Virus record (IMG/VR): IMGVR_UViG_3300009034_000230
Span: 1 to 21,743 of that record
DNA from: a virus
Length of the DNA: 21,743 nt
Reading direction: 5' to 3' (one strand)
Shown here one piece after another: positions 235 to 15,728 of the stretch. Numbering within the stretch: the first letter of the stretch is position 1; each line of letters begins with the position of its first letter. Both the position numbers and the translations under genes were made by a program. The notes under the pieces are model-generated. The model was not told the DNA's origin. It ran no database searches and saw only the letters and a program-made list of their open reading frames with translations.

Positions 235-393
235 TTATTCTCCAAGAAATGGGTCAACAAATCCCCATAAAAATTTTCTACTATAAATTGGTCTTATCTT
301 AATGAACGCATTGTCTCTTATTGCATCAGCTTTTGTTATCGTTTTACTTCCACCACCACCAGCTTCAATCATAGATTCATTATCTATAATCCT
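235..393 (-). pseudogene. C-terminal remnant of the NlpC/P60 peptidase gene
   Basis: This 52-codon open stretch follows a TGA at 394-396 and ends with TAA at 235-237. It is in a different frame from the upstream NlpC/P60 fragment. Its product contains MIEAGGGGS, then KADAIRDNAF, KIRPIYSRK and FVDPF. I recognise this as the usual C-terminal end of phage NlpC/P60 peptidases (an IEAGG motif, then a NAF..RPI.R segment, then a DPF-like end). It has no start codon or ribosome site of its own. It is best read as the tail of the gene at 384-665, separated from it by a frame change and by loss of the central region with the catalytic His. Confidence 0.65.
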
Positions 394-665
394 TCAATGG
401 TAATCCCAGAGCAATCAAATCCACTAGGGTCATCTCCGGCCCATGAATAAAATGTTCCTATATAATGAAAAATATAATTTATAAATTTATCTCTACCTGT
501 CTTTGGTTTCGGTTTATATTTTTTTACCTGTTCGGATAATTCTGTTATATGTACTCTTGTTAATTCAATCATATCCAGCATTTCTGTCAAAGTATTATTA
601 ATTCCATTATTGTTATCGTTCATATTTTCCTCTTTCTTTTTTTTGAATATACCAAATAATCCCAT
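384..665 (-). CDS. NlpC/P60 cell-wall peptidase, truncated N-terminal part
   Basis: The 93-residue product has a charged N-terminal segment (FKKKKEE, then NDNNN), a helical linker, and from about residue 60 the start of an NlpC/P60 domain: YIGTFYSWAGDDPSGFDCSG. C85 in the DCSG motif would be the catalytic nucleophile. In the family this Cys is followed by about 100 residues holding the catalytic His. Here a stop occurs eight residues after C85. The expected C-terminal end lies immediately downstream in another frame (235-393), but about 50 central residues, including the His, cannot be found. Tail-associated NlpC/P60 proteins normally cut host peptidoglycan during DNA entry. As written the product should be inactive. 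The start overlaps the preceding stop (TAAATG), as is usual in this operon. Confidence 0.7.
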   Translation of the reverse strand: MGLFGIFKKKKEENMNDNNNGINNTLTEMLDMIELTRVHITELSEQVKKYKPKPKTGRDKFINYIFHYIGTFYSWAGDDPSGFDCSGITIEGL

Positions 666-1048: not shown

Positions 1049-1633
1049 TTATGGTAAATTAAAAGCACAAGATACTGTTATTCGTATATAATAAAGTTTT
1101 GTATCTGTGTCTGCATCATTATTTTCCCATATAATATATATTATGTAATGATATAATGAATTATCTATTACTGCACCACCTGCACCACCTGTAATTGTAT
1201 CATCATCTTTAGTAATTAAATTTCCTGTAACATCATCACAATCACAATTTGCCAAATCTACTTCTGTTGTGTCAGCAAAAGCAAAACTTTTTAAAGTAAA
1301 ATTAAAATCTACATCAGCATGATTATCATCCCTTTTATATCCTATTCTAAATTGTGTAATAGTATTGCCACTAGGAATATGAGGTAAAGCTGCAAAATAT
1401 GTTTGTTGAGTAAAACCAGCATCAACTTTTTTTATATAAAAATCATTAGCACCTCTCACAATTTCCAGCATATCATCTGCCGTAGAAGTTGAACCTTTTA
1501 TAACCGCTAACGGTATATAAAAATATCTATTTATTGTAGTAATATCACCATCACTTACATCTGACCTTAAAGTATTAAGGTCTGTAGCAAGTATATCATT
1601 CCCAGCAACAACATCACTTGAAGAAAGTCCCAT
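1049..1633 (-). CDS. Probable tail-tip/fibre structural protein
   Basis: The 194-aa product has no signal peptide. Its start (GLSSSDVVAGNDILATDLN followed by TLRSDV) matches the N-terminal pattern of many phage virion proteins that begin with an 'A-x-x-x-N-x-L' helix. The rest alternates beta-type segments (FYIPLAVIKG, FRIGYKRDD, YYIRITVSC) with Gly/Asp loops, so it is probably a beta-sandwich or fibre tip. AGAGGG lies about 8 nt upstream of the ATG. Its stop (TAA, 1049-1051) lies just ahead of the ribosome site of the exported 123-aa gene. I give role by position and composition, not by a named family. Confidence 0.6.
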   Translation of the reverse strand: MGLSSSDVVAGNDILATDLNTLRSDVSDGDITTINRYFYIPLAVIKGSTSTADDMLEIVRGANDFYIKKVDAGFTQQTYFAALPHIPSGNTITQFRIGYKRDDNHADVDFNFTLKSFAFADTTEVDLANCDCDDVTGNLITKDDDTITGGAGGAVIDNSLYHYIIYIIWENNDADTDTKLYYIRITVSCAFNLP

Positions 1634-1651
1634 AATTTTACCCTCTTGATA

Positions 1652-1975
1652 TTAATTTAATTTTAATTTACTTTTTATTTCAGGAGTCACTTTTGTAATT
1701 AATCTTGATTTCATTGCCTGTTTTAATGTTTCAATAGAAATTAAATATTCAAGTATATTATTTGAACCAATTACCAATCTTGAAAAAAACCAGTTTTCAA
1801 ATTCATCTTTTTTAAAATCAGGCATATTTTTTAACATAATTATTGCCTGTGGACTATACCTGATATTTTTTTTATCAATAGTATAGACGTACTTTGTAAT
1901 TTCTTTTACTGGTTTCATTTCTTCCGGTAACATACTCAACATTTTCCTTAAAATGTTATCAATCCATTTCTTCAT
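1652..1975 (-). CDS. Hypothetical protein, small, helical
   Basis: The 107-aa product is basic and probably all-helical (RKMLSMLPEEMKPVKEITKY near the start; a C-terminal KVTPEIKSKLKLN). It has no signal peptide, membrane segment or motif I recognise. GGGGGAG stands about 5 nt before the ATG, so translation is well supported. It lies between two fibre or tip-type genes in the same direction. A structural or chaperone role in tail-tip assembly is possible from position only. Confidence 0.5.
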   Translation of the reverse strand: MKKWIDNILRKMLSMLPEEMKPVKEITKYVYTIDKKNIRYSPQAIIMLKNMPDFKKDEFENWFFSRLVIGSNNILEYLISIETLKQAMKSRLITKVTPEIKSKLKLN

Positions 1976-1994
1976 TTTACTCCCCCTATCTTCT

Positions 1995-2528
1995 TTAAGA
2001 GATTGTTATTTCCTGCTCTACTGTTAAAGTCTTAGCAGCAGTTTTTGTTTTACTATATAATATTCTATTAAATAAAGTTCCTGAATTTGCTGCAACTCCT
2101 GCATCTTCACCAAACCATCCAAATTCTGTTATTACTCCAACTGCATCTGCCTTAGCATAATACACTCTGATTGATAATACCGTACCAGCTAAATTGCTAT
2201 AAGATACTAAAGCTCTATCTAGTTCGGTTACTAATTGAGTATCACCAACCGCTGGAAGTGTTGTTCCTGTTCCAACTGCACCATAAGTAATTATTCCTTC
2301 ATTTGCTATCAATGCAGCATTTTTCAATCTATTTAATATCATCTGTTTTCCGATAGTTGTCAATATATTATCTTTCCATTTTCCGTATATCACTTTTGCT
2401 CCCTTATCAGTATAAGGATTATTCGGGTCATTATCAATAAACCTTATTCTACCTTTTATTGTTATTGATTCTTTTTTTAATTTTATCTTATCGCCATTCA
2501 GCTTCATTCCATTTACCTGATTTTGCAT
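1995..2528 (-). CDS. Tail-tip/fibre protein of the 'GtGtt' type
   Basis: The 177-aa product carries a pattern common in phage baseplate and fibre proteins: IITYGAVGTGTTLP, then DTQLVTELDRA, a beta strand ending RVYYAKAD, ITEFGWFGEDA, and GTLFNRILYSKTK before a C-terminal VEQEITI. The order 'GtGtt..p...dt.L..El.R / E.G.F / GtL..R / K....L.v' is the basis for the call. The first ATG overlaps the end of the hub gene by 41 nt; an internal ATG at residue 8 is an alternative start. No signal peptide. It probably forms part of the tail tip. Confidence 0.6.
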   Translation of the reverse strand: MQNQVNGMKLNGDKIKLKKESITIKGRIRFIDNDPNNPYTDKGAKVIYGKWKDNILTTIGKQMILNRLKNAALIANEGIITYGAVGTGTTLPAVGDTQLVTELDRALVSYSNLAGTVLSIRVYYAKADAVGVITEFGWFGEDAGVAANSGTLFNRILYSKTKTAAKTLTVEQEITIS

Positions 2529-3240
2529 CTACCCCCCATTTAAAATCATTATCTCTTTCTTCAAAAGTTGTGGGAGTTGCATCCGATATTTCTATTTCTA
2601 CACTAGGTAATCTTAATAAATCATGTAACGTTTCATTAAATCCAACTCCCATTTCAGCTTTTATCCAGTTTAAATTTAATTTCTTTAAAAATTCTGTTAA
2701 TGTTTTAATCTTACCAGCGAATACAACTGTATACCATATTTCATTACTGCTTTTTAATACTGATACAACTTCCTGTATAACAAATTCCTGACTAGTATAT
2801 CCCCACGTTGGTAAATTAATAACTATTGTTTGGCCACTTCTATATCCAGCTTGGTCAGTTTTAAAACTACCGCTTACATTTACTTGAGAATATTTTGATA
2901 ATTCTGCATACGCTCTATCGTGTGCTGCTTCTAAAGTTTCAATTTGTGTATCAGTTATTATATGAGTATATTTTCCACTTCCACCTTCAATATTTCTTAT
3001 TACTTCCTGACTATTTGCATCATTATCTTCCGTTAATACCTGTACTTCTTTTTTATATGTTACCTTTAATTTATGAGTTGCTCCCAGAGCTGCATGGTCT
3101 AAATTTCTTATTAATCCATGATTATAATTTACAACAAAATCTGAACCCGTTGCATCTACATCATCAACTCCTAAAGTTTTTGCATCATATACATCATCTC
3201 CATCATCATCGACTGCAACAGTTATAGGATTTCTCGGCAA
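2488..3240 (-). pseudogene. Tail hub-like protein, C-terminal part separated by a frameshift
   Basis: A 250-aa product can be read from a TTG at 3238-3240, but no start signal is evident. The same frame stays open upstream through 3241-3416, coding for residues such as LKIKRDKTQLRNRIIVRGG and TVIFVADGKQTTYPLGD. It meets the gene at 3405-4133 exactly at a 14-bp tandem duplication (3403-3430). Deleting one copy fuses both parts into a 543-codon frame with no stop. The sequence includes VTYKKEVQVL and a C-terminal FKWGVDAKSGKWNEAEW. The 'RNRIIVRGG' stretch fits the second half of siphovirus hub or minor tail proteins. I treat it as the 3' part of one gene rather than a gene of its own. Confidence 0.7.
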
Positions 3241-3402
3241 ATCTCCAAGAGGGTATGTTGTTTGTTTTCCGTCAGCAACAAATATTACTGTTTGTATGGC
3301 AGATAAAAATAATCCACCTCGAACTATAATTCTATTTCTTAACTGTGTTTTATCACGTTTTATTTTTAAATTTTTATAATGTCCAGTTGTAGAAATACTT
3401 TC

Positions 3403-3430
3403 TGTTAATTGATAAGTGTTAATTGATAAG
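3403..3430. repeat. Perfect 14-bp tandem duplication splitting the hub gene
   Basis: TGTTAATTGATAAG occurs twice head to tail (3403-3416 and 3417-3430, plus-strand sense) with no mismatch. Fourteen is not a multiple of three, so the second copy shifts the minus-strand frame, and translation stops at a TAA inside the repeat. With one copy, reading goes APYQLT-ESISTTGHYKNL and continues to 2488. The distance 4133-2488 minus 14 is 1632 bases, exactly 544 codons including the stop. Confidence 0.95.
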
Positions 3431-4133
3431 GAGCATAAGTTGTTTTCGGTTTAAAGAATAAAACTTTTTTATTATAATCAATATACCATCTCCAATCAAA
3501 CATTTCAGCAATATCATTAATACATTCCCCTAATGGTTTATAATTAAATCTTATTGCATCTACAGTTGGAGTACCAGTTAATACAGCAATATAAAATTCT
3601 TCACCATAATTATCTAATAAATCAAGTATAATAGTATACGCACTATCATCATCATAGGATTCTACTGGATATTCTTTATTTGCTCTTTTTTCATAACTGC
3701 TACACTGTATTGTATATATAAAATTTCTCTGACCGGGAGCTATTTCTTTTGGTACAGCACTATCAATATTACCACCAAACCATATTTCAGGAGTTGAACC
3801 AGCATTATCTTTTTTAAATACTAATACTTCCTGTCCTTCTCTTGGATTTATTTCATCTCCAATATCATGTAATCTAAACATTAATGTATCAGCTCGTAAG
3901 TGTATCTTATCAGCTTTTCTTATTGATGTAGTTTCAACCATAGTAGTTCGATTTATTCCCCTGATAAATACAGTCAACGGTACTGTATAAGTATGCGTAA
4001 AATCACCACCAGCAAAAGGTCTCCAAGCACTTTCTAAATACATATATGCTTGTGATATAGATGGTTTTATCCAGACCTTACCATTATTTAAATCATCTGG
4101 AGCAATTTCTGCAAATTGTACCATTGTAGCCAT
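3405..4133 (-). CDS. Tail hub-like (baseplate/minor tail) protein, N-terminal part
   Basis: The 242-aa product starts with a short module (residues about 18-43: GKVWIKPSISQAYMYLESAW, then AGG) also present in the upstream 96-aa gene. From about residue 47 it resembles the first domains of siphovirus hub proteins: TVPLTVFIRGINRT, a 'LMFRLHD....GQEVLVF' strand pair, IWFGGNIDS, YTIQCSSYEKRA, and FDWRWYIDYNKKVLFFKP near the end. Position after the tape measure supports a tail-tip hub. The frame ends early at a TAA inside a 14-bp duplication. The intact gene would be 2488-4133 and 543 aa. What is visible may be a mutant, an assembly error, or one phase of a switch. Confidence 0.65.
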   Translation of the reverse strand: MATMVQFAEIAPDDLNNGKVWIKPSISQAYMYLESAWRPFAGGDFTHTYTVPLTVFIRGINRTTMVETTSIRKADKIHLRADTLMFRLHDIGDEINPREGQEVLVFKKDNAGSTPEIWFGGNIDSAVPKEIAPGQRNFIYTIQCSSYEKRANKEYPVESYDDDSAYTIILDLLDNYGEEFYIAVLTGTPTVDAIRFNYKPLGECINDIAEMFDWRWYIDYNKKVLFFKPKTTYAPYQLTLIN

Positions 4134-4139
4134 ATTATA

Positions 4140-4430
4140 TTATGCTCCCACAAAAACTTTCCATGCATCTAAATAAATAAATACTTCGTGTGTTGTTGTA
4201 TTTTCCCATATCTTACCAAGTTCAACTGCAGGTGCTGCAGCTTGATGTACCATTACTTTCCAAAAATTTCCTTCCTGATAATTAGCAATCGGATTTCCAC
4301 CAGCAACTACTTTCCATGAATCATTAATATAAATATATGCTTGACTGATTGACGGTTTTATCCAAAACCATCCACCAACTGGAGTATCTGGTTCGTCCTC
4401 TTTTATTATAACGTTGTAATAGAAGGCCAT
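4140..4430 (-). CDS. Small tail-tip protein made of two W-module repeats
   Basis: The 96-aa product contains two copies of a short beta-type module: residues 20-45 (WFWIKPSISQAYIYINDSWK followed by VVAGG) and residues 71-95 (GKIWENTTTHEVFIYLDAWK, then VFVG). The first copy is nearly identical to residues 18-43 of the hub-like protein that follows. The pattern 'G.iW......yiY...W...G' is widespread in phage fibre and tip proteins as a small stackable hairpin. The start codon shares a base with the tape-measure stop (TAATG), which suggests translational coupling. Function is inferred as tail-tip structural or decoration. Confidence 0.55.
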   Translation of the reverse strand: MAFYYNVIIKEDEPDTPVGGWFWIKPSISQAYIYINDSWKVVAGGNPIANYQEGNFWKVMVHQAAAPAVELGKIWENTTTHEVFIYLDAWKVFVGA

Positions 4431-6319
4431 TATACATTTATTTCTGTTTGTAATTTATACATTATATTATCGCTTATCTTATCAGATAAATTGTCAACTG
4501 ATTCTTCATCAGCAATAACATTATCATGTATATCATTTATTATTGTTATACGTCCTCCACCACCTGCACCTCTCATAATATTTCTTGTTTGCTGAGCAGA
4601 ATAAATATCTGCTCCTGCAGGTACGTTCATTAATTCAGCTCCTTCTTCCCCTATCATAGCATAACCGCCACGTGCTCCCCTAGTACCAGCAGCAAATCTT
4701 TGTGTTTTTATAAGTTCAACTTTTGCCACCGCTTCTGCAAGTACCGCAGCTGCAAGTATAAGGTTAGCAGGAAACGGAGCTTGAGTTAATGCCTTAGCTG
4801 ATGCAACTAATCCACTGATTGTCGCCTCAGCAATACCCCATTTTTTATATTCTTCTTTTATTTTTCTTGATTCTTCTTGACCTTCTTTTTCTATCGCAAC
4901 TAAGTTTCGATTATAATCAATTTCAAGTAATTCCAAATCTCTTAACATTTCCGCATTATCTTCAGTAGATGTTTCAATACGATTTTTTTCTGCATTATAT
5001 TTTACCCATTCAGCATTCTTTTTATCTTCAATACTATTTTGTAATCTTGCCCGCTCTAAACTTTCATAAGCATTTGAAAGTGAAATCATTCTTGCATTTA
5101 AAGCTTCAACTATTGGAGCATATTCTGCAACAAATTCAACAACATTCTCGATAATTGTATCATATAAAGCTGTATGAGTTTCCATAACTATAAAAGCCCA
5201 ATTAGACCATAATGCTTGTTGTTTTTTAAGACTTGTATCCATATTTAATTCAATCGCAGTAGTAGTCTTTTCACTATTCATTAATATACTATTTCCTAAA
5301 GTTTGCTGTAAATCCAAAGAAGATGCAGCATTTATTATTTCAAGTGCTTCTCTTTTTCTGATTTCTTCTTCTTTTTTCCGTGTTATATCTTCTTCAATTA
5401 ATCCCCTTAATCCAGCAACCCTTCTTTGTGATTCAACTAATTTATCCATTAAAGATATTTGTTCTTCTGTACTTAATTGTTCATTTAATAATATTAATTG
5501 TATTTGTGCAATTCGTGTTTCTTCAGCTTCAATTTGTTTTTTTGCTATATCTATTCTATCTATACCTAATCTATTTATAGTTCCCATTTTATCTACTAAT
5601 TCAACAAGTAAACTTAACCACATTGCTAATGATTGATTTAGTTCTCTACCAATAACTTCTTTTAAATCATCAATTCTTTCTTTCTGGATAGTAACTTCAC
5701 CAGTAAATGTTGCCAGTTCACCGGTTGCCATTCCACCCATTTTTTCTTTTAATATTGTTAATGCATAATCAGTTTTATCTGCTGCATCTGTTATTCCTAA
5801 TAAATTAAGATTCGCTGCTTTTAACTGTGGGATATATCTACCTAGCATTTCAACGTTGCCTTCCATCGCTAATCCCATGTAAGTAATAGCTGAATCTAAT
5901 CCGAAAAATCCAGCAGAAGCCAAATCCAAAGCTATGGTAACCCCTTCCATAGCTGTTTCCAAATCACCAGTAAACGTAATCATTTTTTGTAAGGCAGGTC
6001 TTAAATCACTATCAGAATATAAAGTTGCTGCTTGAATAGAAGCTATCCAGCCCTCAATATATTCTTTACTATCTCTCCAACTTATACCAGCAAGGTCAAC
6101 TGCAATAGCCAATCTTCTTTGTGCGATTTCTTCTGCTGCACCTGCAGCAGATAAATTTTTTATTATACTTATTACTCCTGCAATCGCAGCACTTCCAACA
6201 ACCAAATCACCGATTGTACGGATAGTATTCCTCATAGAATTATCTACTTTATTAAATTCTCCTGAAGCTCTATCAATTCCTTGAAGTGTTACTTTTGCTC
6301 TGAAATCTCTTTCAGCCAT
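4430..6319 (-). CDS. Tape measure protein
   Basis: The 629-aa product sets tail length and usually helps DNA entry. Visible evidence: an N-terminal 'AKVTLQGIDRASGEFNKVDN' start common to tape measures; a hydrophobic segment (about 36-60, LVVGSAAIAGVISIIKNL); a long central helical part with coiled-coil character (around IEAEETRIAQIQLILLNEQL, and KKEEEIRKREALEII); and at about 541-575 the typical glycine-rich C-terminal signature FAAGTRG..GGYAMIGEEGAEL, then NVPAGADIY. It follows the tail chaperone frameshift pair, as expected, with start and stop overlapping (TAATG at 6317-6321). At about 1.5 angstrom per residue it predicts a tail near 90-95 nm (inference). Confidence 0.9.
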   Translation of the reverse strand: MAERDFRAKVTLQGIDRASGEFNKVDNSMRNTIRTIGDLVVGSAAIAGVISIIKNLSAAGAAEEIAQRRLAIAVDLAGISWRDSKEYIEGWIASIQAATLYSDSDLRPALQKMITFTGDLETAMEGVTIALDLASAGFFGLDSAITYMGLAMEGNVEMLGRYIPQLKAANLNLLGITDAADKTDYALTILKEKMGGMATGELATFTGEVTIQKERIDDLKEVIGRELNQSLAMWLSLLVELVDKMGTINRLGIDRIDIAKKQIEAEETRIAQIQLILLNEQLSTEEQISLMDKLVESQRRVAGLRGLIEEDITRKKEEEIRKREALEIINAASSLDLQQTLGNSILMNSEKTTTAIELNMDTSLKKQQALWSNWAFIVMETHTALYDTIIENVVEFVAEYAPIVEALNARMISLSNAYESLERARLQNSIEDKKNAEWVKYNAEKNRIETSTEDNAEMLRDLELLEIDYNRNLVAIEKEGQEESRKIKEEYKKWGIAEATISGLVASAKALTQAPFPANLILAAAVLAEAVAKVELIKTQRFAAGTRGARGGYAMIGEEGAELMNVPAGADIYSAQQTRNIMRGAGGGGRITIINDIHDNVIADEESVDNLSDKISDNIMYKLQTEINV

Positions 6320-6495
6320 TATCTTTTTCTCTTTCTTCTTACTGTTCTAACTACTGGTTTAGTATTTTGTTTTTGTTCCAGTATTGATATTTCTGCACAT
6401 ATACTATTAAAATTATAATCAAACATATTTAAGTCCAATATTTCTGAAGGCAATTTTCCGTATCTTCTACCTAATGAATCAAGCCATAATATATT
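6319..6495 (-). CDS. Tail assembly chaperone, frameshift (T-like) extension
   Basis: A 58-codon open frame in the +1 (equivalently -2) frame begins exactly at the stop of the 145-aa chaperone and ends at 6319-6321, overlapping the tape-measure start. The product begins NILWLDSLGRRYGKLPSEIL, continues DLNMFDYNFN and ends in a basic tail (VRTVRRKRKR). There is no good start codon or ribosome site, so it is probably expressed only as a fusion of about 203 aa with the upstream gene. This matches the G/GT arrangement conserved just before the tape measure in long-tailed phages. Most of those use -1; Mu-like phages use -2, and +1 cases are known. The -1 frame here stops after eight codons. Confidence 0.75.
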   Translation of the reverse strand, partial: NILWLDSLGRRYGKLPSEILDLNMFDYNFNSICAEISILEQKQNTKPVVRTVRRKRKR

Positions 6496-6931
6496 ATTTT
6501 TTGTCTTCCGATTCTTGACGAAACGATTTTAAAGAATCTGTACCCCCCCAAGAATATTCATTTATTAAAAGAATTAACATAGAAAAATCATTATCTGGAA
6601 TATCTTGTATACAAACTTTACCTTCTTCTTTTCCTGTTGATATTTGAGGATTTATTACTGCCCTACAAATCATTAAGTTATGAATATTAATTTGTTTCTT
6701 TTTATCAGTTGATTCCGGTGTACGTTGAGCAATTATTTTTAAACGTTCCTCTGACGGTAATTTTCTTTCCTGTGCTGTCATTGTAGGTATCGTTCCACCA
6801 AAAAATACATAATCTCTTGAAGTGATTTTACGGATTTCGAATATTGCCTTGGAGGGTAATTCTATTAATTTTGTTTCGTTTTCGGTCAGCTTGTTATATT
6901 CGTCTGCCGAAGTGGGTTTTTTTGAATCCAT
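6494..6931 (-). CDS. Tail assembly chaperone (G-like)
   Basis: The 145-aa product is soluble and acidic, with an N-terminal LIELPSKAIFEIRKITSRDY resembling the strand pair at the start of phage tail assembly chaperones, and a C-terminal helical part (NDFSMLILLINEYSWGG). It lies between the tail-tube gene and the tape measure, the standard place for this gene. Its last codons (GAC AAA AAA TAA) form a slippery run ahead of an open frame in +1/-2. An AAAGAGAGGT ribosome site precedes the ATG. It should coat the tape measure during tail assembly. The identification rests on position, size and the frameshift more than on sequence motifs. Confidence 0.75.
   Translation of the reverse strand: MDSKKPTSADEYNKLTENETKLIELPSKAIFEIRKITSRDYVFFGGTIPTMTAQERKLPSEERLKIIAQRTPESTDKKKQINIHNLMICRAVINPQISTGKEEGKVCIQDIPDNDFSMLILLINEYSWGGTDSLKSFRQESEDKK
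6497..6502 (-). promoter_or_regulatory. Probable programmed frameshift site (A6 before stop)
   Basis: The minus strand reads GAC AAA AAA TAA at the end of the chaperone gene. In the +1/-2 frame the nearest upstream stop is at 6529-6531, so the shift must happen between about 6528 and the zero-frame stop; the A6 run is the only homopolymer there. A stop codon in the A site behind AAA favours slippage, and a GGAAG lies just upstream and could act as an internal Shine-Dalgarno stimulator. Whether the shift is +1 or -2 cannot be told from sequence. Confidence 0.65.
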
Positions 6932-9264: not shown

Positions 9265-10176
9265 CTATAAATCCATTTTCTTATACGGAATTAAAAATGC
9301 AATTAAATCCAAAGGCAAATATATTCCCATGACTTTATAATCTGACCTTTGATAAGAAGTAGTTCTTATTCCGTCGCCCTCAGAATTCAATCCTGTTTTC
9401 TTTCTTAAAGAAAATATATATTTACATAATTCTTTTATTCCCTGTTTTAAATCTTCAGGCATAGTTGCAGTAGTATAACCATAGTAATATGAAACTTTCC
9501 ATGCTTTTAAATTCTGACTTGCATCCCAGCCACCACGTCTATATATCATTCCCTTATCAGCAATTATTTCATAATCATCATGGTCAGTTAAAGTTTCTAA
9601 ATCTGCTTCGGTTACGTAATCATATAATATAACTGAATACGCTTGAGCAGTATCAACTGGATATTGAGATAATCTTAAATATCTAGCACTATGTCCATCT
9701 ATATATTCAGTTAAAGAAGTTTGTATAAAATTCCTTCTACAAAATGATACAGCAAATCTTGACATAGCATTAATTATATTATCCAGTGATACACCATTAA
9801 ATCCATACAAAGCAATTTCACCAGTTCTATTTAATGCACTAACAGCAGAAAAATTATATAAATCTGTTGAAGCAAAAGCTGAAGGACATAATCTATTTAT
9901 TACCCAGCTATCCCCTAATGCTTCTATGACGGTAATTAATTCACCTATCGTATCGTTTGCAGCTAAAGATAAATCAATCGTATCAGTTCCAGCCCTTGCA
10001 CCACCGGTTATCACTAACGTTAATGTATCCCCAGATTTTGCTACGGTTACGGCAGTTGCTCCCGATGCAGTACAATACATTTTCATACAGGCAACTTTTA
10101 TTTCTTCCCTATTCAAATCTAAGGATTCAAGTAATTCATCCTGAGTTATTAATGCATAAGCAGAATCTAGGGTCAT
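9265..10176 (-). CDS. Head-tail connector (gp6/gp15-type adaptor) with inserted domain
   Basis: The 303-aa product is about twice the usual adaptor length. The two ends fit the adaptor family: an N-terminal ALITQDELLESLDL helix, then from about residue 130 NIINAMSRFAVSFCRRNF (the 'cgR.F' motif), EYIDGHSARYLRLSQYPV, IYRRGGWDASQNLKAWKVSY followed by YYGYTTATMPEDLKQGIKEL. Residues about 34-118 are a foreign beta-rich module (VTVAKSGDTLTLVITGGARA, TIDLSLAANDTIGELITVIE) between the first and second helices. The start overlaps the nuclease stop (ATGA). It should join the portal to the neck and tail. Confidence 0.8.
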   Translation of the reverse strand: MTLDSAYALITQDELLESLDLNREEIKVACMKMYCTASGATAVTVAKSGDTLTLVITGGARAGTDTIDLSLAANDTIGELITVIEALGDSWVINRLCPSAFASTDLYNFSAVSALNRTGEIALYGFNGVSLDNIINAMSRFAVSFCRRNFIQTSLTEYIDGHSARYLRLSQYPVDTAQAYSVILYDYVTEADLETLTDHDDYEIIADKGMIYRRGGWDASQNLKAWKVSYYYGYTTATMPEDLKQGIKELCKYIFSLRKKTGLNSEGDGIRTTSYQRSDYKVMGIYLPLDLIAFLIPYKKMDL

Positions 10177-10538
10177 CCTTTTTTACCACCATAATATTGT
10201 TTAGAATATCCATTATCTATTATCCACATATTATAATTTACTTTTTTTTCTTCCTTATCTATAAAAAATATTTCTGCTAACCATCTGCCATATTTATCAG
10301 GAGCATAAGTTTCAACTTCTACCTTTTTATTTTTAAATAATTCTATTGCAAGTTTTTTTACTTTTTTTCCTTCTTTGGTAGATAATTCAGGAGTATCAAT
10401 TCCGTACAACCTGAAATTTTCTTCCCAGTGTATATGGTTTCCCATATCAATATTCAACCTGAACGTATCACCATCAACTATTTTTATTAATTTTACATTA
10501 TGATAATAATATTGTTTTGTTAATTTTGTTTTTTTCAT
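10173..10538 (-). CDS. Staphylococcal nuclease-like (SNase) enzyme
   Basis: The 121-aa product matches the thermonuclease fold: KIVDGDTFRL (residues 19-28), FRLYGIDTPEL (42-52), then DKYGRWLAEIFF (81-92), and a C-terminal WIIDNGYSKQYY. R43, E51 and R85 correspond to the catalytic Arg35, Glu43 and Arg87 of the staphylococcal enzyme, and the Asp residues for calcium are present, so it looks active. Unlike most neighbours it has no signal peptide and would stay in the cytoplasm or virion. Start and upstream stop overlap (TAATG); its stop overlaps the connector start (ATGA). Its job in a virion operon is not obvious; host DNA breakdown is one possibility. Confidence 0.85.
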   Translation of the reverse strand: MKKTKLTKQYYYHNVKLIKIVDGDTFRLNIDMGNHIHWEENFRLYGIDTPELSTKEGKKVKKLAIELFKNKKVEVETYAPDKYGRWLAEIFFIDKEEKKVNYNMWIIDNGYSKQYYGGKKG

Positions 10539-10870: not shown

Positions 10871-11284
10871 CTATGGTGTACTTGGAATTACGCTGAAATC
10901 TTCAAGGAAATCATCCGGTAAATCATTAAATTTAAAACTATCCCAAACTTGAATATCACCAAATCTTGTTTGTTTAGCTATAACATTTCCAGAAGATATT
11001 TTTGTTATAAAATTATAATTCATATCTAATACTTTGAAAAAAGTTCTTTCATTGTCATCCGTTGGGGTAATTTTTAATAAAACATAATTAGTATTTTTTT
11101 GTATTAATCTTGTCAATCTGAATGGTTGTCCACCTGCATTATTAATATTAAGTCTACCTTTAGCAGATAAATCATTAATTGAGTATGCACAGGCAAAATT
11201 TCTCATATCAATTAAATAGATATATCGTTCCTGAGAATGACATAGTGTTATTACCAAGAATAAAATACAAAATAATTTCTTCAT
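10871..11284 (-). CDS. Exported protein of unknown function
   Basis: I chose the ATG at 11282-11284 because it overlaps the methyltransferase TGA (ATGA), giving a product (137 aa) that starts MKKLFCILFLVITLCHS then QE, a clean Sec signal peptide. The mature part is about 120 residues, with strands such as RYIYLIDMRNFACAYSI and NYVLLKITPTDDNERTFFKV and an acidic C-terminal segment (DLPDDFLEDF). There is no lipobox and no membrane segment after the signal. I do not recognise the family. It is one of several exported proteins packed between capsid and neck genes. Confidence 0.6.
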   Translation of the reverse strand: MKKLFCILFLVITLCHSQERYIYLIDMRNFACAYSINDLSAKGRLNINNAGGQPFRLTRLIQKNTNYVLLKITPTDDNERTFFKVLDMNYNFITKISSGNVIAKQTRFGDIQVWDSFKFNDLPDDFLEDFSVIPSTP

Positions 11285-11784
11285 ACTGGTATCCATTCTG
11301 TCAAAATAGTTGCATTAAAGATATTTTTTTCTTTTATCTTTTTATAGTATTTACTCAATATTCTAAAAATAGATTTAAAATCAGTCACGTGAAATTTATA
11401 CGAATCACTGTGTCCTGTTAATATCATTCCTAATTTACTCAACCAACTTTCTGTTGGTAATCCTACAATCAAAATATGATTCGGATTTATTCGTATAAAA
11501 TCTTTTACTATTATTTCTATTTCATAATCTGGAATATGTTCTAACACATGATTGCAAACAATTACATCAGGTAACGTATTCTTATAATCGTGTTCTTCCG
11601 TATATTCAGGATTAATGTCATAGTTTAATACATAATTTTCTTTTAATCTTTTTTTTAATTCTTTTTTTCCGCATCCAAAATCAAGTACCCATTTCCCTTT
11701 AGGTATCCATTTCACTATTGTATTTAAAATTTTATTACAATATATCCCTATTATACCTGTATATATAGGTTGATAATCTTTCAT
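11281..11784 (-). CDS. Class I SAM-dependent methyltransferase
   Basis: The 167-aa product is a short Rossmann-type methyltransferase. Motif I is VLDFGCGKKEL (residues 33-43), the acidic residue after strand 2 is D56 (LNYDINPEY), and the post-motif region DVIVCNHVLEHI (73-84) has the HVLEH signature typical of Methyltransf_11 enzymes. A strand HILIVGLP follows, then a substrate-side region with TGHSDSYKFHV. The substrate cannot be read; small molecule, glycan or lipid methylation is more usual for this type than DNA, and no NPPY/DPPY motif is seen. It is flanked by genes for exported proteins and has no signal peptide itself. Confidence 0.75.
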   Translation of the reverse strand: MKDYQPIYTGIIGIYCNKILNTIVKWIPKGKWVLDFGCGKKELKKRLKENYVLNYDINPEYTEEHDYKNTLPDVIVCNHVLEHIPDYEIEIIVKDFIRINPNHILIVGLPTESWLSKLGMILTGHSDSYKFHVTDFKSIFRILSKYYKKIKEKNIFNATILTEWIPV

Positions 11785-11785
11785 A

Positions 11786-12505
11786 TTAATTTATAAATTT
11801 TCCTTTCTGTTCATCATATTTAGTTTTGATTTCACCTGCAGAAAGTGCTCTTGTATAAAATGCTGCTTCATCTCCTGTTCCATCTATATAATTCGCTCCA
11901 TTAGAATGATTAAAAATTGTCACCGCAGCTGTTCCATCTCTTAAAACAACATTATTTGTAACTGGTTGACTTGCAATCCATACACCATTAAGATATTGAT
12001 TAACTGCTACACCTTTTTTATAAGTTGTTGTCCAATGATACCATTTGTTTAAATCCAAATCTACAGGTATTCTACAAATTGTTTCTCCAGATATATTTTC
12101 CCAACTACTATATATATATGCAGGCGGAGCATCAGTAATATAAGCTTGGTCTGCAAGTCCTCCATCACTTTCTGCGAAATAATGATGTGTTCTACTACCA
12201 GTAAGTTTTACCCAAAACATGAAAGTCCCTTCATTTGCACCATTAAATCCACCACCAACAGTTGCTGTTTGACAATATTCCCCTGTATCAGTTCCACTTA
12301 ATCCATAATTGTATTTACCAGAAACCCAAGCCATATCTGTTATAGTCAAATCATTACTATTGTTACTTGAATCATGAACAGCCGCTCCTGTTTTTTCATC
12401 AAAATGCCATAATCCTGCAAATCCTGAATCTTTATGAGAAATTTGTTTACCTAAAAGAAATTGACTTAAAATTAATATCAACAATAAATATAATGTATTT
12501 TTCAT
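11786..12505 (-). CDS. Exported LamG/concanavalin-like domain protein
   Basis: I chose the ATG at 12503-12505, 8 nt after AGGAG; an upstream GTG overlaps that ribosome site. The 239-aa product begins MKNTLYLLLILILSQFLLG then KQ, a signal peptide. The rest is one jelly-roll domain of the LamG type: GLWHFDE (31-37), a 'GTFMFWVKL' strand, KWYHWTTTYKKG (154-165), NQYLNGVW, and the closing GDEAAFYTRALSAGEI (211-226). LamG domains commonly bind glycans or serve as adhesion domains. Two mature cysteines (C78, C144) could form a disulfide, fitting export. It starts 1 nt after the preceding stop. Confidence 0.8.
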   Translation of the reverse strand: MKNTLYLLLILILSQFLLGKQISHKDSGFAGLWHFDEKTGAAVHDSSNNSNDLTITDMAWVSGKYNYGLSGTDTGEYCQTATVGGGFNGANEGTFMFWVKLTGSRTHHYFAESDGGLADQAYITDAPPAYIYSSWENISGETICRIPVDLDLNKWYHWTTTYKKGVAVNQYLNGVWIASQPVTNNVVLRDGTAAVTIFNHSNGANYIDGTGDEAAFYTRALSAGEIKTKYDEQKGKFIN

Positions 12506-12506
12506 G

Positions 12507-13193
12507 TTATTCACTCCTCCAATATCTTACTAATACTCCTGCACCAACTTGTAAATCTCCACCAATCGCCGAAACAAAATCTACAAATAATCCTATCTTA
12601 TCACAATCACTATTACTTACACTTGTTTGTAATGTTGTCCAACTTGAGCAAGCACTATTAGTCGATAATTCTATTGTACTAATTGATGTCCAAGTAGGTA
12701 CATGACAACCGGTTGATTCTTTTATTTCAAAAATAACAGAAGCTGCAGTTGAACAAAAAGTTGTAAATGCTTGAATACCTGTTATTTCTATTGCATCAGT
12801 CGGTATTGGAAAAACATCTATTGGATTAGTTTTTGATTCATAAATATCAGCTTGGAATCCACCTAATACAAAATAATAAGTTGTATACCCAGCAGCAATC
12901 GGTACACCGTCAGTCGTAAATGATTGAGCATCAATATTATCTACTCCTTTTATATCATGTCCTCTATACCAAGAACTACCGTAAAAAGTTGTAGCCACCA
13001 TTAATTGAATATGTCCGTGATTATTAGCAGTAATTGAATCTACATATATTATAAGCACATTTGTCACGTTATGTTCATTTATATCTACACTTTTTGTTGC
13101 CTTATGATTCCCTAAATTATCTCCAACCGGTTTAGATGCAAAACATATTCCAGTTAAAAATAAACATATTAATAATACAAATATTTTTTTCAT
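12507..13193 (-). CDS. Exported fibre-like protein with DNLGNH motif
   Basis: The 228-aa product starts MKKIFVLLICLFLTGICFA then SK, a Sec signal peptide. Right after the cut comes GDNLGNHKATK (24-34), a motif frequent near the base of phage tail fibres and of bacterial surface proteins. The rest is beta-rich, with a C-terminal domain from about residue 136 (ITGIQAFTTFC through GDLQVGAGVLVRYWRSE). Four cysteines in that domain (147, 163, 182, 197) could form two disulfides, consistent with an oxidising location. AGGAG precedes the ATG. Likely role: surface-exposed adhesin or fibre; whether virion-borne is unknown. Confidence 0.65.
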   Translation of the reverse strand: MKKIFVLLICLFLTGICFASKPVGDNLGNHKATKSVDINEHNVTNVLIIYVDSITANNHGHIQLMVATTFYGSSWYRGHDIKGVDNIDAQSFTTDGVPIAAGYTTYYFVLGGFQADIYESKTNPIDVFPIPTDAIEITGIQAFTTFCSTAASVIFEIKESTGCHVPTWTSISTIELSTNSACSSWTTLQTSVSNSDCDKIGLFVDFVSAIGGDLQVGAGVLVRYWRSE

Positions 13194-13202
13194 TATTTTC
13201 TC

Positions 13203-14783
13203 CTATTCATAGATTTCATTAATAATTAAAACTTGATTTCCTGTCTCAGATTGAAAATATATTGGTAGATGCCATGTATCTATAATTATTTTAGTATTAA
13301 TTGGAGTACCACAAGATATAACATCTTCATTATAAAATCTCATTCTAACTTCATCGGTATTATCTTCATGCGGGTCTATCCATATTTCTATCACACTTGT
13401 TTGAGGGGTATAAGTTACTGAAGCTCCTGTACCGACTGCTAAAGTTGTACCAGTTGATTTAACTCCATCATATACTTTATTATATACTGTAGTTCCACCT
13501 ATTAATACATCTCTTATATTTATTAAATATCCATGTGTTTTTGTATCACTACTTGCGACTATATTGGCAATATCCTGTACAGTAGTAATCACCCCAGATG
13601 ATATTACTACAGCTTTTAGTCTATCCCTTATATTTATTAAATAAGTATGCGATGTTGTATCGCTTGTGGCAACAATCCCAGCAATATCTTCAATACTTGT
13701 AATTACTCCCGAAGAAATAACTATCGCCTTTAATCTATCACGTATATTAATCAAATACGTATGAGAAATCGTATCACTCGTTGCCACTATACCGGCAATA
13801 TCTTCAACTGTAGTAATAACACCCGAACTGATAACAACAGCTTTCAATCTATCCCGGATACTAATTAAATATGCATGTGATTTAGTATCACTAGAAGCTA
13901 CAATATTCATTATATCTTCAACTCTAGTAATTACTCCAGATGTTATGACAATATCTTTCTCTCGATTAAAAATATCTCTTAGTGAATTATTAAGTGTATG
14001 CGTTCCTGTTGATGTTAATGTATATAATTTATCTAACCAACTATGAGTTGTATAATCAGCAACAATAAATAAATTATCCGTACTAATTTCTAATCTGTAA
14101 AGTGCATCACTTCTTAATCTATCCCATTCACCCAAATCTTTATTATATCCGTACAGATGATTTAAAGTCAATAATGCATTTCGGTCATTAGCAATTCCGT
14201 CAGCACTGGTATCTTCAACAACTGCAATAGCATTTTGGTAATGTATCATTACAACTGCATTAGTATCTGTTCTTACTTCAAGATGATTCATTTCATTACT
14301 TCTTAATCTTGCCCATACACCAGTAGTTTCGTTATAGCCAAGTAATGCACCACGAACCAATAATCCATAATCAGTTGCAACTTCAGCATCTGAATTACCC
14401 TGTATTACCCTAGCCCTATTCCCATTATTATAAATATTCACATCTGAATCAGTTGATGTATGAACTATGAGAAAATTAGTCACATCACTTTGTAACCTGT
14501 TCCAGTTTGTTCCGTCGAAACCAAACAGGAAACTTGCTGCTGCTAAGGAAAATGTTGATACTGATACACCATCCTGATTTATTTGCATTACTGCAACAAC
14601 ATCAGCATCTTCAAATATAGCAATTCGCAGATTATCATAAGTTCCATCCTGAGTTAATACTCTTTTCATTACCTGATTTATATTATCATAAATAAATAAA
14701 TTAGAAGTAGAACTTCCTGACTCGGCCAGTATTAATCCAGTAAATAAAAATATCCCTAATAAAAATATAAGTATTTTTTTCAT
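13203..14783 (-). CDS. Exported repeat-rich fibre-like protein
   Basis: The 526-aa product begins MKKILIFLLGIFLFTGLILA then ES, a signal peptide. Residues about 85-235 hold three copies of a roughly 65-aa unit with the pattern 'lfGfdgtnWnRLqSD....L.v.t' (at 85-106, 147-171 and 210-234), a motif otherwise familiar from phage tail-fibre-like virion proteins. Residues about 279-427 hold four tandem 38-aa repeats (SGVIT at 282, 320, 358, 396; each with EDI or QDI, SDT, a YLI.IRD). A separate beta domain closes the protein (TGASVTYTP, IEIWIDPHEDN, WHLPIYF). GGAGAGAGG lies upstream of the ATG. A long surface stalk with a tip is the simplest reading. Confidence 0.7.
   Translation of the reverse strand: MKKILIFLLGIFLFTGLILAESGSSTSNLFIYDNINQVMKRVLTQDGTYDNLRIAIFEDADVVAVMQINQDGVSVSTFSLAAASFLFGFDGTNWNRLQSDVTNFLIVHTSTDSDVNIYNNGNRARVIQGNSDAEVATDYGLLVRGALLGYNETTGVWARLRSNEMNHLEVRTDTNAVVMIHYQNAIAVVEDTSADGIANDRNALLTLNHLYGYNKDLGEWDRLRSDALYRLEISTDNLFIVADYTTHSWLDKLYTLTSTGTHTLNNSLRDIFNREKDIVITSGVITRVEDIMNIVASSDTKSHAYLISIRDRLKAVVISSGVITTVEDIAGIVATSDTISHTYLINIRDRLKAIVISSGVITSIEDIAGIVATSDTTSHTYLINIRDRLKAVVISSGVITTVQDIANIVASSDTKTHGYLINIRDVLIGGTTVYNKVYDGVKSTGTTLAVGTGASVTYTPQTSVIEIWIDPHEDNTDEVRMRFYNEDVISCGTPINTKIIIDTWHLPIYFQSETGNQVLIINEIYE
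13503..13949 (-). repeat. Four in-gene tandem repeats, 114 bp (38 codons) each
   Basis: Four copies with exact 38-codon spacing encode nearly the same peptide (ISSGVITTVEDIAGIVATSD, then a T.SH.YLINIRDRLKA stretch). At DNA level the copies differ at many third positions: codons for the same LINIRDRL segment differ in copies 2, 3 and 4. The third to fourth copies are cut off by a different ending (IRDVLIGG). Confidence 0.9.
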
Positions 14784-14811
14784 AGTTTACCTCTCTCCTT
14801 TTTAAATAAAA

Positions 14812-15192
14812 TTAATATCTTTCGTGAATTTCTAATCTTGCATTTAATGCAGTTTGGTCTGCTGGCGCTTGACTAGATGTTATAATATACCACCAGCTTG
14901 ATTGATATACATTATATTTATCTTCCCACCAATCGCCATTCGGTTTTAAAGATTTACCATCATCAGAATATTTGAAATTCCAAGTTGACCTTTTAACAGT
15001 CCAGCTAAGGGATAAATTTGTAACGTGGTAGTATACCCTTCCCGGTTCATAACCTCCACCCACTACCGCAGAATGAGTATTAACATTAATATCGTATATA
15101 TCATTTTTTCTATCCCTGACTATTCCCTGTGGAGTTAATACAATTAACAACATAAAAACTAACAACAATAAAAATATCTGGTATAGTTTCAT
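14812..15192 (-). CDS. Exported or membrane-anchored protein of unknown function
   Basis: I chose the ATG at 15190-15192, which has AGAGAGAGGT about 8 nt upstream; the longer frame to 15255 would run back through a palindrome without a ribosome site. The 126-aa product starts MKLYQIFLLLLVFMLLIVLT, followed by PQGIVRDRKND. The hydrophobic run is long and lacks a clear cut site, so it may be an uncleaved anchor with the rest outside. The remainder is rich in W and Y (SLSWTVKRSTWNFKY, NGDWWEDKYNVYQSSWWYI) and ends in a helix (TALNARLEIHERY). Family unknown. Confidence 0.6.
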   Translation of the reverse strand: MKLYQIFLLLLVFMLLIVLTPQGIVRDRKNDIYDINVNTHSAVVGGGYEPGRVYYHVTNLSLSWTVKRSTWNFKYSDDGKSLKPNGDWWEDKYNVYQSSWWYIITSSQAPADQTALNARLEIHERY

Positions 15193-15217
15193 TTTTTTAT
15201 ACCTCTCTCTTTTTATA

Positions 15218-15253
15218 AATTTGTTATAATAGCAGGTGAGCATATCGCTCACC
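15218..15253 (-). promoter_or_regulatory. Palindrome with possible overlapping promoter
   Basis: GGTGAGC at 15235-15241 and GCTCACC at 15247-15253 form a perfect 7-bp inverted repeat with a 5-base loop. No T run follows on either strand, so it is not a standard terminator. On the minus strand a TTGGTG and a TATTAT are 18 bp apart, with most of the palindrome in between, which would be a promoter with an operator-like site leading into the 15192 gene. This is a weak call from sequence alone. Confidence 0.3.
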
Positions 15254-15281
15254 AAAAATAAGTTTTCACTTATGCAATTTC

Positions 15282-15713
15282 TTACCTATACTGGACACTA
15301 ACCCTCACAGCAGAATTTGTGTTTGATTTTCGTATCGCTAAACCGTAATCACATTTCAATCCCCATCTATCACCAAAACTTTCCTGCCACGGATTTGTTC
15401 CAGTAATAGCGCTTGATAAATGGACTACCCAAATTGGCAATACTGCAGCAGTGGAAACACTATTCGTAAACCCATCGTAGAAAGTTACAATCTGGTCATG
15501 TCCATAATCACTATTGGAAATATTGAAATGTCTTATAAAACTCATTCGAGTAGAACTTGAAATCTGTAAGTCCGCAGCAGTATTTATTCCCCCACCAGTT
15601 CCAATAACATCAAAAGTCGAAAGGACAACAATAAATGATTCACATTCATCAGCAATTAAATTTCCAATAACCAGTGCCAATACCAAAATACATATTAAAA
15701 TAAATCTTTTCAT
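15282..15713 (-). CDS. Exported protein of unknown function
   Basis: I chose the ATG at 15711-15713 (GAGAGG 8 nt upstream); a GTG nine bases earlier lies inside that ribosome site. The 143-aa product starts MKRFILICILVLALVIGNLI, then ADECESF, a signal peptide with a probable cut after ALA-like LIA. Two mature cysteines (about residues 24 and 121) may pair. The body is beta-rich (FIVVLSTFDVIGTGGGINTA, IVTFYDG, VLPIWVVHLSSAITG, GLAIRKSNTNSAVRVSVQYR). The layout resembles small virion jelly-roll proteins, but the signal peptide argues for export. It is the first gene of the exported-protein insert downstream of the capsid genes. Confidence 0.6.
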   Translation of the reverse strand: MKRFILICILVLALVIGNLIADECESFIVVLSTFDVIGTGGGINTAADLQISSSTRMSFIRHFNISNSDYGHDQIVTFYDGFTNSVSTAAVLPIWVVHLSSAITGTNPWQESFGDRWGLKCDYGLAIRKSNTNSAVRVSVQYR

Positions 15714-15728
15714 CTTTTTCACCTCTCT

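Follow-up and report, generated by a model that had tools for sequence, protein, structure and literature searches.

A 14-bp tandem duplication splits the tail hub gene of an uncultured tailed phage

The tail hub gene of an uncultured tailed phage was found to be split by a perfect 14-bp tandem duplication on a metagenomic contig, as the initial annotation had stated. We consider it most likely, with a probability of about one half, that the hub gene recently suffered a real null mutation in a phage copy that is defective or decaying, because the same contig holds a second inactivating lesion. The two causes that the annotation had named as alternatives, a recent mutation and an assembly error, both fit the data better than the switch of infectivity that it had put forward.

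Results

The duplication breaks the reading frame of the hub gene

The window (the whole stretch of 21,743 nucleotides that was analysed) covers a linear, 21,744-base virus record except for a single base. At 3403-3430, TGTTAATTGATAAG was present as two perfect adjoining copies without any gap (Table 1); no other perfect two-copy tandem with a period of 10-60 occurred in the window. When the window was shuffled with its dinucleotides preserved, a perfect tandem of period at least 12 appeared in none of 200 shuffles. The edges of the repeat carried no microhomology, and there were no Ns at the junction. As 14 leaves a remainder of two on division by three, the duplication results in a two-base frame shift. 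In the other fetched loci (214 kb), four perfect tandems of period 12-60 were observed; the period was a multiple of three in three of them, and the fourth was a 25-bp array in L055 that may or may not lie in coding sequence. With only four tandems in 214 kb, three of them frame-neutral, frame-breaking tandems in genes are rare in the fetched material.

The first part of the gene (part A, frame A) ends inside the repeat, as annotated, at a TAA, and the remainder (part B, frame B) stays open across it, the repeat lying within the overlap of the two frames. The distance from 4133 to 2488 is 1646 nt; when one copy is subtracted, 1632 nt are left, which agrees with the annotated frame of 544 codons once the stop is included. 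A codon-usage score trained on the remaining window genes was coding-like for frame A up to 3451 (+0.48 bits per codon) and reached +0.36 bits per codon in frame B at 3402-3241 and +0.49 at 3240-2488; the remaining frames over the hub region gave negative scores and contained stops. The one complete polypeptide of a tail hub is not encoded on this contig, as the frame is broken at the repeat.

Table 1. Coordinates of the hub gene parts, the repeat and the second broken gene in the window
Feature	Position	Strand	Remarks
Part A, tail hub N-terminus (242 residues)	3405..4133	-	ATG at 4133; stop TAA 3407-3405 inside the repeat
Part B, remainder of the hub, open frame	2488..3450	-	No ATG, GTG or TTG before 3240
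Stretch open in both frames, 46 nt	3405..3450	-	Frame A without X XXY YYZ heptamer
Repeat copy 1, TGTTAATTGATAAG in plus-strand order	3403..3416		Holds the part A stop TAA 3407-3405 (minus strand)
Repeat copy 2, identical to and adjoining copy 1	3417..3430		
Second broken gene, NlpC/P60 hydrolase	235-665	-	Stop behind the Cys motif; C-terminal part in another frame

Two overlapping and coding-like frames might be taken for an intended split, in which ribosomal frameshifting joins the parts or each part is a protein of its own, and frame B is indeed the -1 frame of frame A, the direction of common phage recoding. However, no X XXY YYZ heptamer was found in frame A from 3456 to 3405, so that the overlap is devoid of a slippery site, and the transition was not conserved in the readable relatives, none of which has a split gene. 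Two separate proteins fare no better; owing to the lack of any ATG, GTG or TTG in frame B before 3240, part B has no usual start at its conserved beginning. The first possible start is the TTG at 3240, which falls 54 codons into the conserved part and has a GGAG only 2 nt upstream. An intended split of the gene is scarcely credible in the light of these findings.

The split gene belongs to the tail hubs

Part A matched PHROG 196 'baseplate hub' weakly (E = 0.0045) and part B matched PHROG 807 (E = 0.004, over 46 residues), while a Pfam search of both halves gave no match and a PDB search by sequence gave nothing useful. The intact relative L004 was modelled with AlphaFold2, using an alignment that included both halves from the window. 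The mean pLDDT of the model was 50, with values of ~60-90 over most of residues 30-180 and mostly 70-90 in the N-terminal domain. A Foldseek search with this model returned the 43-kDa tail protein of MuSo2 (3cdd, E = 9e-15), Mu gp44 (1wru, 3e-11), VgrG proteins (~1e-10) and T4 gp27 (1k28, 7e-7); the alignments ran over ~400 columns, phage and secretion hubs ranked best, and the viral library concurred. As these alignments cover both halves, part A by itself does not amount to a complete hub. The model is of low confidence in its middle, which restricts the detail rather than the hub assignment.

The assignment of the split gene to the tail or baseplate hubs of the gp27/Mu gp44/VgrG fold, with the fold predicted on L004, is thus strongly supported; the PHROG 196 match adds to it weakly and the fold of the intact relative strongly. 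Hubs such as gp27, Mu gp44, gpD and VgrG share the predicted fold of this relative, and the place behind the tape-measure gene is likewise common to them. That place is direct in Caudoviricetes sp. vir515 and in Thermoanaerobacterium phage THSA-485A, and in the window one gene of 96 aa lies between. In contrast to the known hubs, the gene of the window is cut by a duplication, and the sequence identity to solved hubs is ~10-15%.

Relatives read through the junction in a single frame

Parts A and B were searched separately. In tblastn, each half alone matched adjacent regions of vir515_00034 (611 aa; BK063672.1) of Caudoviricetes sp. vir515, part A residues 100-223 and part B residues 230-438. 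The second relative was Tsac_2848 (433 aa) of THSA-485A. Both proteins are homologous to the window hub over both halves at ~24-29% identity, which bears out the annotated family-like sequence on either side of the repeat, but their frames are uninterrupted and free of a junction repeat; vir515_00034 has in addition an extra C-terminal part. The identity to the closest hub relatives found was only ~25-30%.

A profile search with part A matched 13 virus contigs, and a wider profile in a second viral scan returned the same 13 again. L007 and L008 carry the same protein and were counted once, and L006 was left out, giving 11 contigs and, together with vir515 and THSA-485A, 13 distinct readable relatives. 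A single open frame ran through the junction in all 13, L005 being open there and leaving its contig further on, and no perfect tandem of period at least 8 was detected within 60 codons at the junction in any of them. The related genomes, which the annotation had proposed to inspect, therefore show one frame and no repeat, and two copies with separate starts were not encountered. In L006, which is the same as L005 except for Ns, a 1-base insertion breaks the frame; this is what an error-type frameshift looks like in such records.

The spacing of conserved residues across the junction was also compared. The distance from the D of a W/Y-I-D motif to the following conserved RN is 38 residues in vir515, L004, L005 and L009, and 43 in THSA-485A. 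The window has 137 nt, which is not a whole number of codons; with one copy removed the spacing becomes 41 codons and falls between the 38 and 43 of the relatives. Closer relatives and further records of the same virus were sought in viral contigs with peptide patterns from part A, part B and the capsid protein, and none was found. Comparison of 1500-6500 with phages revealed no DNA similarity, a pattern allowing one or two copies at the junction had no match in viral contigs, and a search of genome contigs with two profiles likewise had none.

A second gene of the contig is broken

The contig derives from an uncultured tailed phage, with minus-strand genes for a portal/MuF fusion, a major capsid protein, a tail tube and a tape-measure protein. 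A second broken gene, for an NlpC/P60 hydrolase, was found close to the contig end, 2.7 kb from the hub repeat. Its frame 665-384 stops just past the catalytic-cysteine motif DPSGFDCSG; it matched PHROG 329 and positions 1-20 of Pfam PF00877, the latter below the curated cut-off. The C-terminal part lies in frame 393-238, for which 38 relatives were obtained in virus contigs. DCSG stands 58-75 codons upstream and in the same frame in 36 of them, and the other two have a variant motif (VCSG in L021, DCSR in L025). In the window the DCSG is 26 nt away and out of frame, from which it follows that ~150 nt are missing from the gene. The record thus carries two inactivating lesions of different kinds, a duplication and an out-of-frame deletion. 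The other genes examined on the contig appear intact.

Several further features were observed along the contig, all but the last on the minus strand. The region 10871-15722, between the capsid and the head-tail connector genes, holds genes with signal-peptide-like starts, an unusual location for exported proteins; it includes a Laminin_G_3 domain at 11786-12514 and a 114-bp tandem array at 13567-13931. Proteins resembling a staphylococcal nuclease (10173-10538) and a methyltransferase (11281-11784) are encoded in the same block. The start of the hub gene (4020-4133) and the preceding small gene (4140-4430) share the segment 'WIKPSISQAY.Y..S W+..AGG', possibly a duplicated domain. The tape-measure gene and the gene at 6494-6931 are separated by a gap (6319-6494), a position at which many phages encode a frameshifted extension of the tail-assembly chaperone.

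Discussion

A real null mutation would have proceeded in few steps. An isolated, non-programmed 14-bp tandem duplication would arise inside the hub gene, the frame would shift by two, and, with 242 residues made, translation would end inside the repeat. Synthesis of the second half of the hub would then be lost, which would amount to a null lesion of the hub on this contig, and the genome carrying it may be a defective copy such as a decaying provirus or a minority variant. The hub has thus probably lost its function, and probably recently, there being one lesion in 544 codons. We also infer that the duplication exists in real molecules and not merely in the assembly; base calling does not usually produce errors such as a duplication of 14 bp, and a pair of structural lesions is in keeping with a defective copy. 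On the other hand, general decay is not evident while the other examined genes seem intact, and no integrase was seen on the record, which is a fragment. A transposon footprint, with a doubled target site left behind by an excised element, seems a less probable origin: the excision would have to be exact, and no such element was observed.

The sequence would nevertheless be identical if it came from an assembly artefact, and it is quite possible, to a degree that deserves serious weight, that only one copy exists in the real phage, the hub of which would be intact. The assembler could have overlooked a 14-bp overlap between two contig ends and simply joined them, or could have taken an uncommon and faulty read path. 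An unmerged overlap would be exact and lacking in microhomology, just as the duplication is, so the repeat edges suit this origin equally well; the second lesion lies near a contig end, and the 1-base insertion with Ns in the otherwise identical L006 illustrates errors of this sort. Against an artefact stand the size of the duplication, unusual for base calling, the junction free of Ns and the intact state of most other genes. In the GeneTack survey of frame transitions (PMC3711429), singleton frameshifts for which homologues exist are expected to stem from indel mutations or from errors in sequencing, mostly the latter. The hub gene resembles these singletons in that its homologues have one frame and the break is confined to a single record, but its cause is visible as a 14-bp duplication instead of a single-base indel.

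The initial annotation had suggested that reversible slippage between the repeats might switch the tail tip on and off, and infectivity or host range with it. In such a phase-variable system the hub would alternate between two states as the copies slip, and only part of the virions would be infectious. Copy number of a perfect tandem does decide the frame here, as in slipped-strand phase variation, and slippage can remove one copy; small-tandem-repeat switches are known in bacteria, for example the 6-bp repeat of mutL (PMC2955026). However, phase-variable genes usually retain the repeat in relatives, often as many short units (PMC3711429), whereas the hub gene has two copies only and the repeat was neither conserved nor variable in copy number among the relatives (0/13). 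The repeat falls within the core of the hub. Slippage that removed one copy would simply revert the gene, while regain would require a new duplication at a repeat-free site, and no such slippage could repair the deletion that breaks the NlpC/P60 gene. Searches of the literature yielded nothing usable on how often repeats of such a length slip in phages, or on comparable tail switches. The proposed switch found no support in a singleton two-copy repeat accompanied by a second, unrelated lesion and by no recoding signal, and we consider it very unlikely. It is likewise very unlikely that the phage population gains and loses the duplication at a rate that would let it serve as a bet-hedging switch, with virion infectivity controlled at the tail hub.

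If true, a switch at the tail hub would be new, and only the repeat itself speaks for it. The case calls for caution, as one metagenomic contig with a short duplication can give the impression of a switch, and the record should be flagged as holding two damaged genes. In its present form the gene is an ordinary case, a new and broken member of a widespread hub family.
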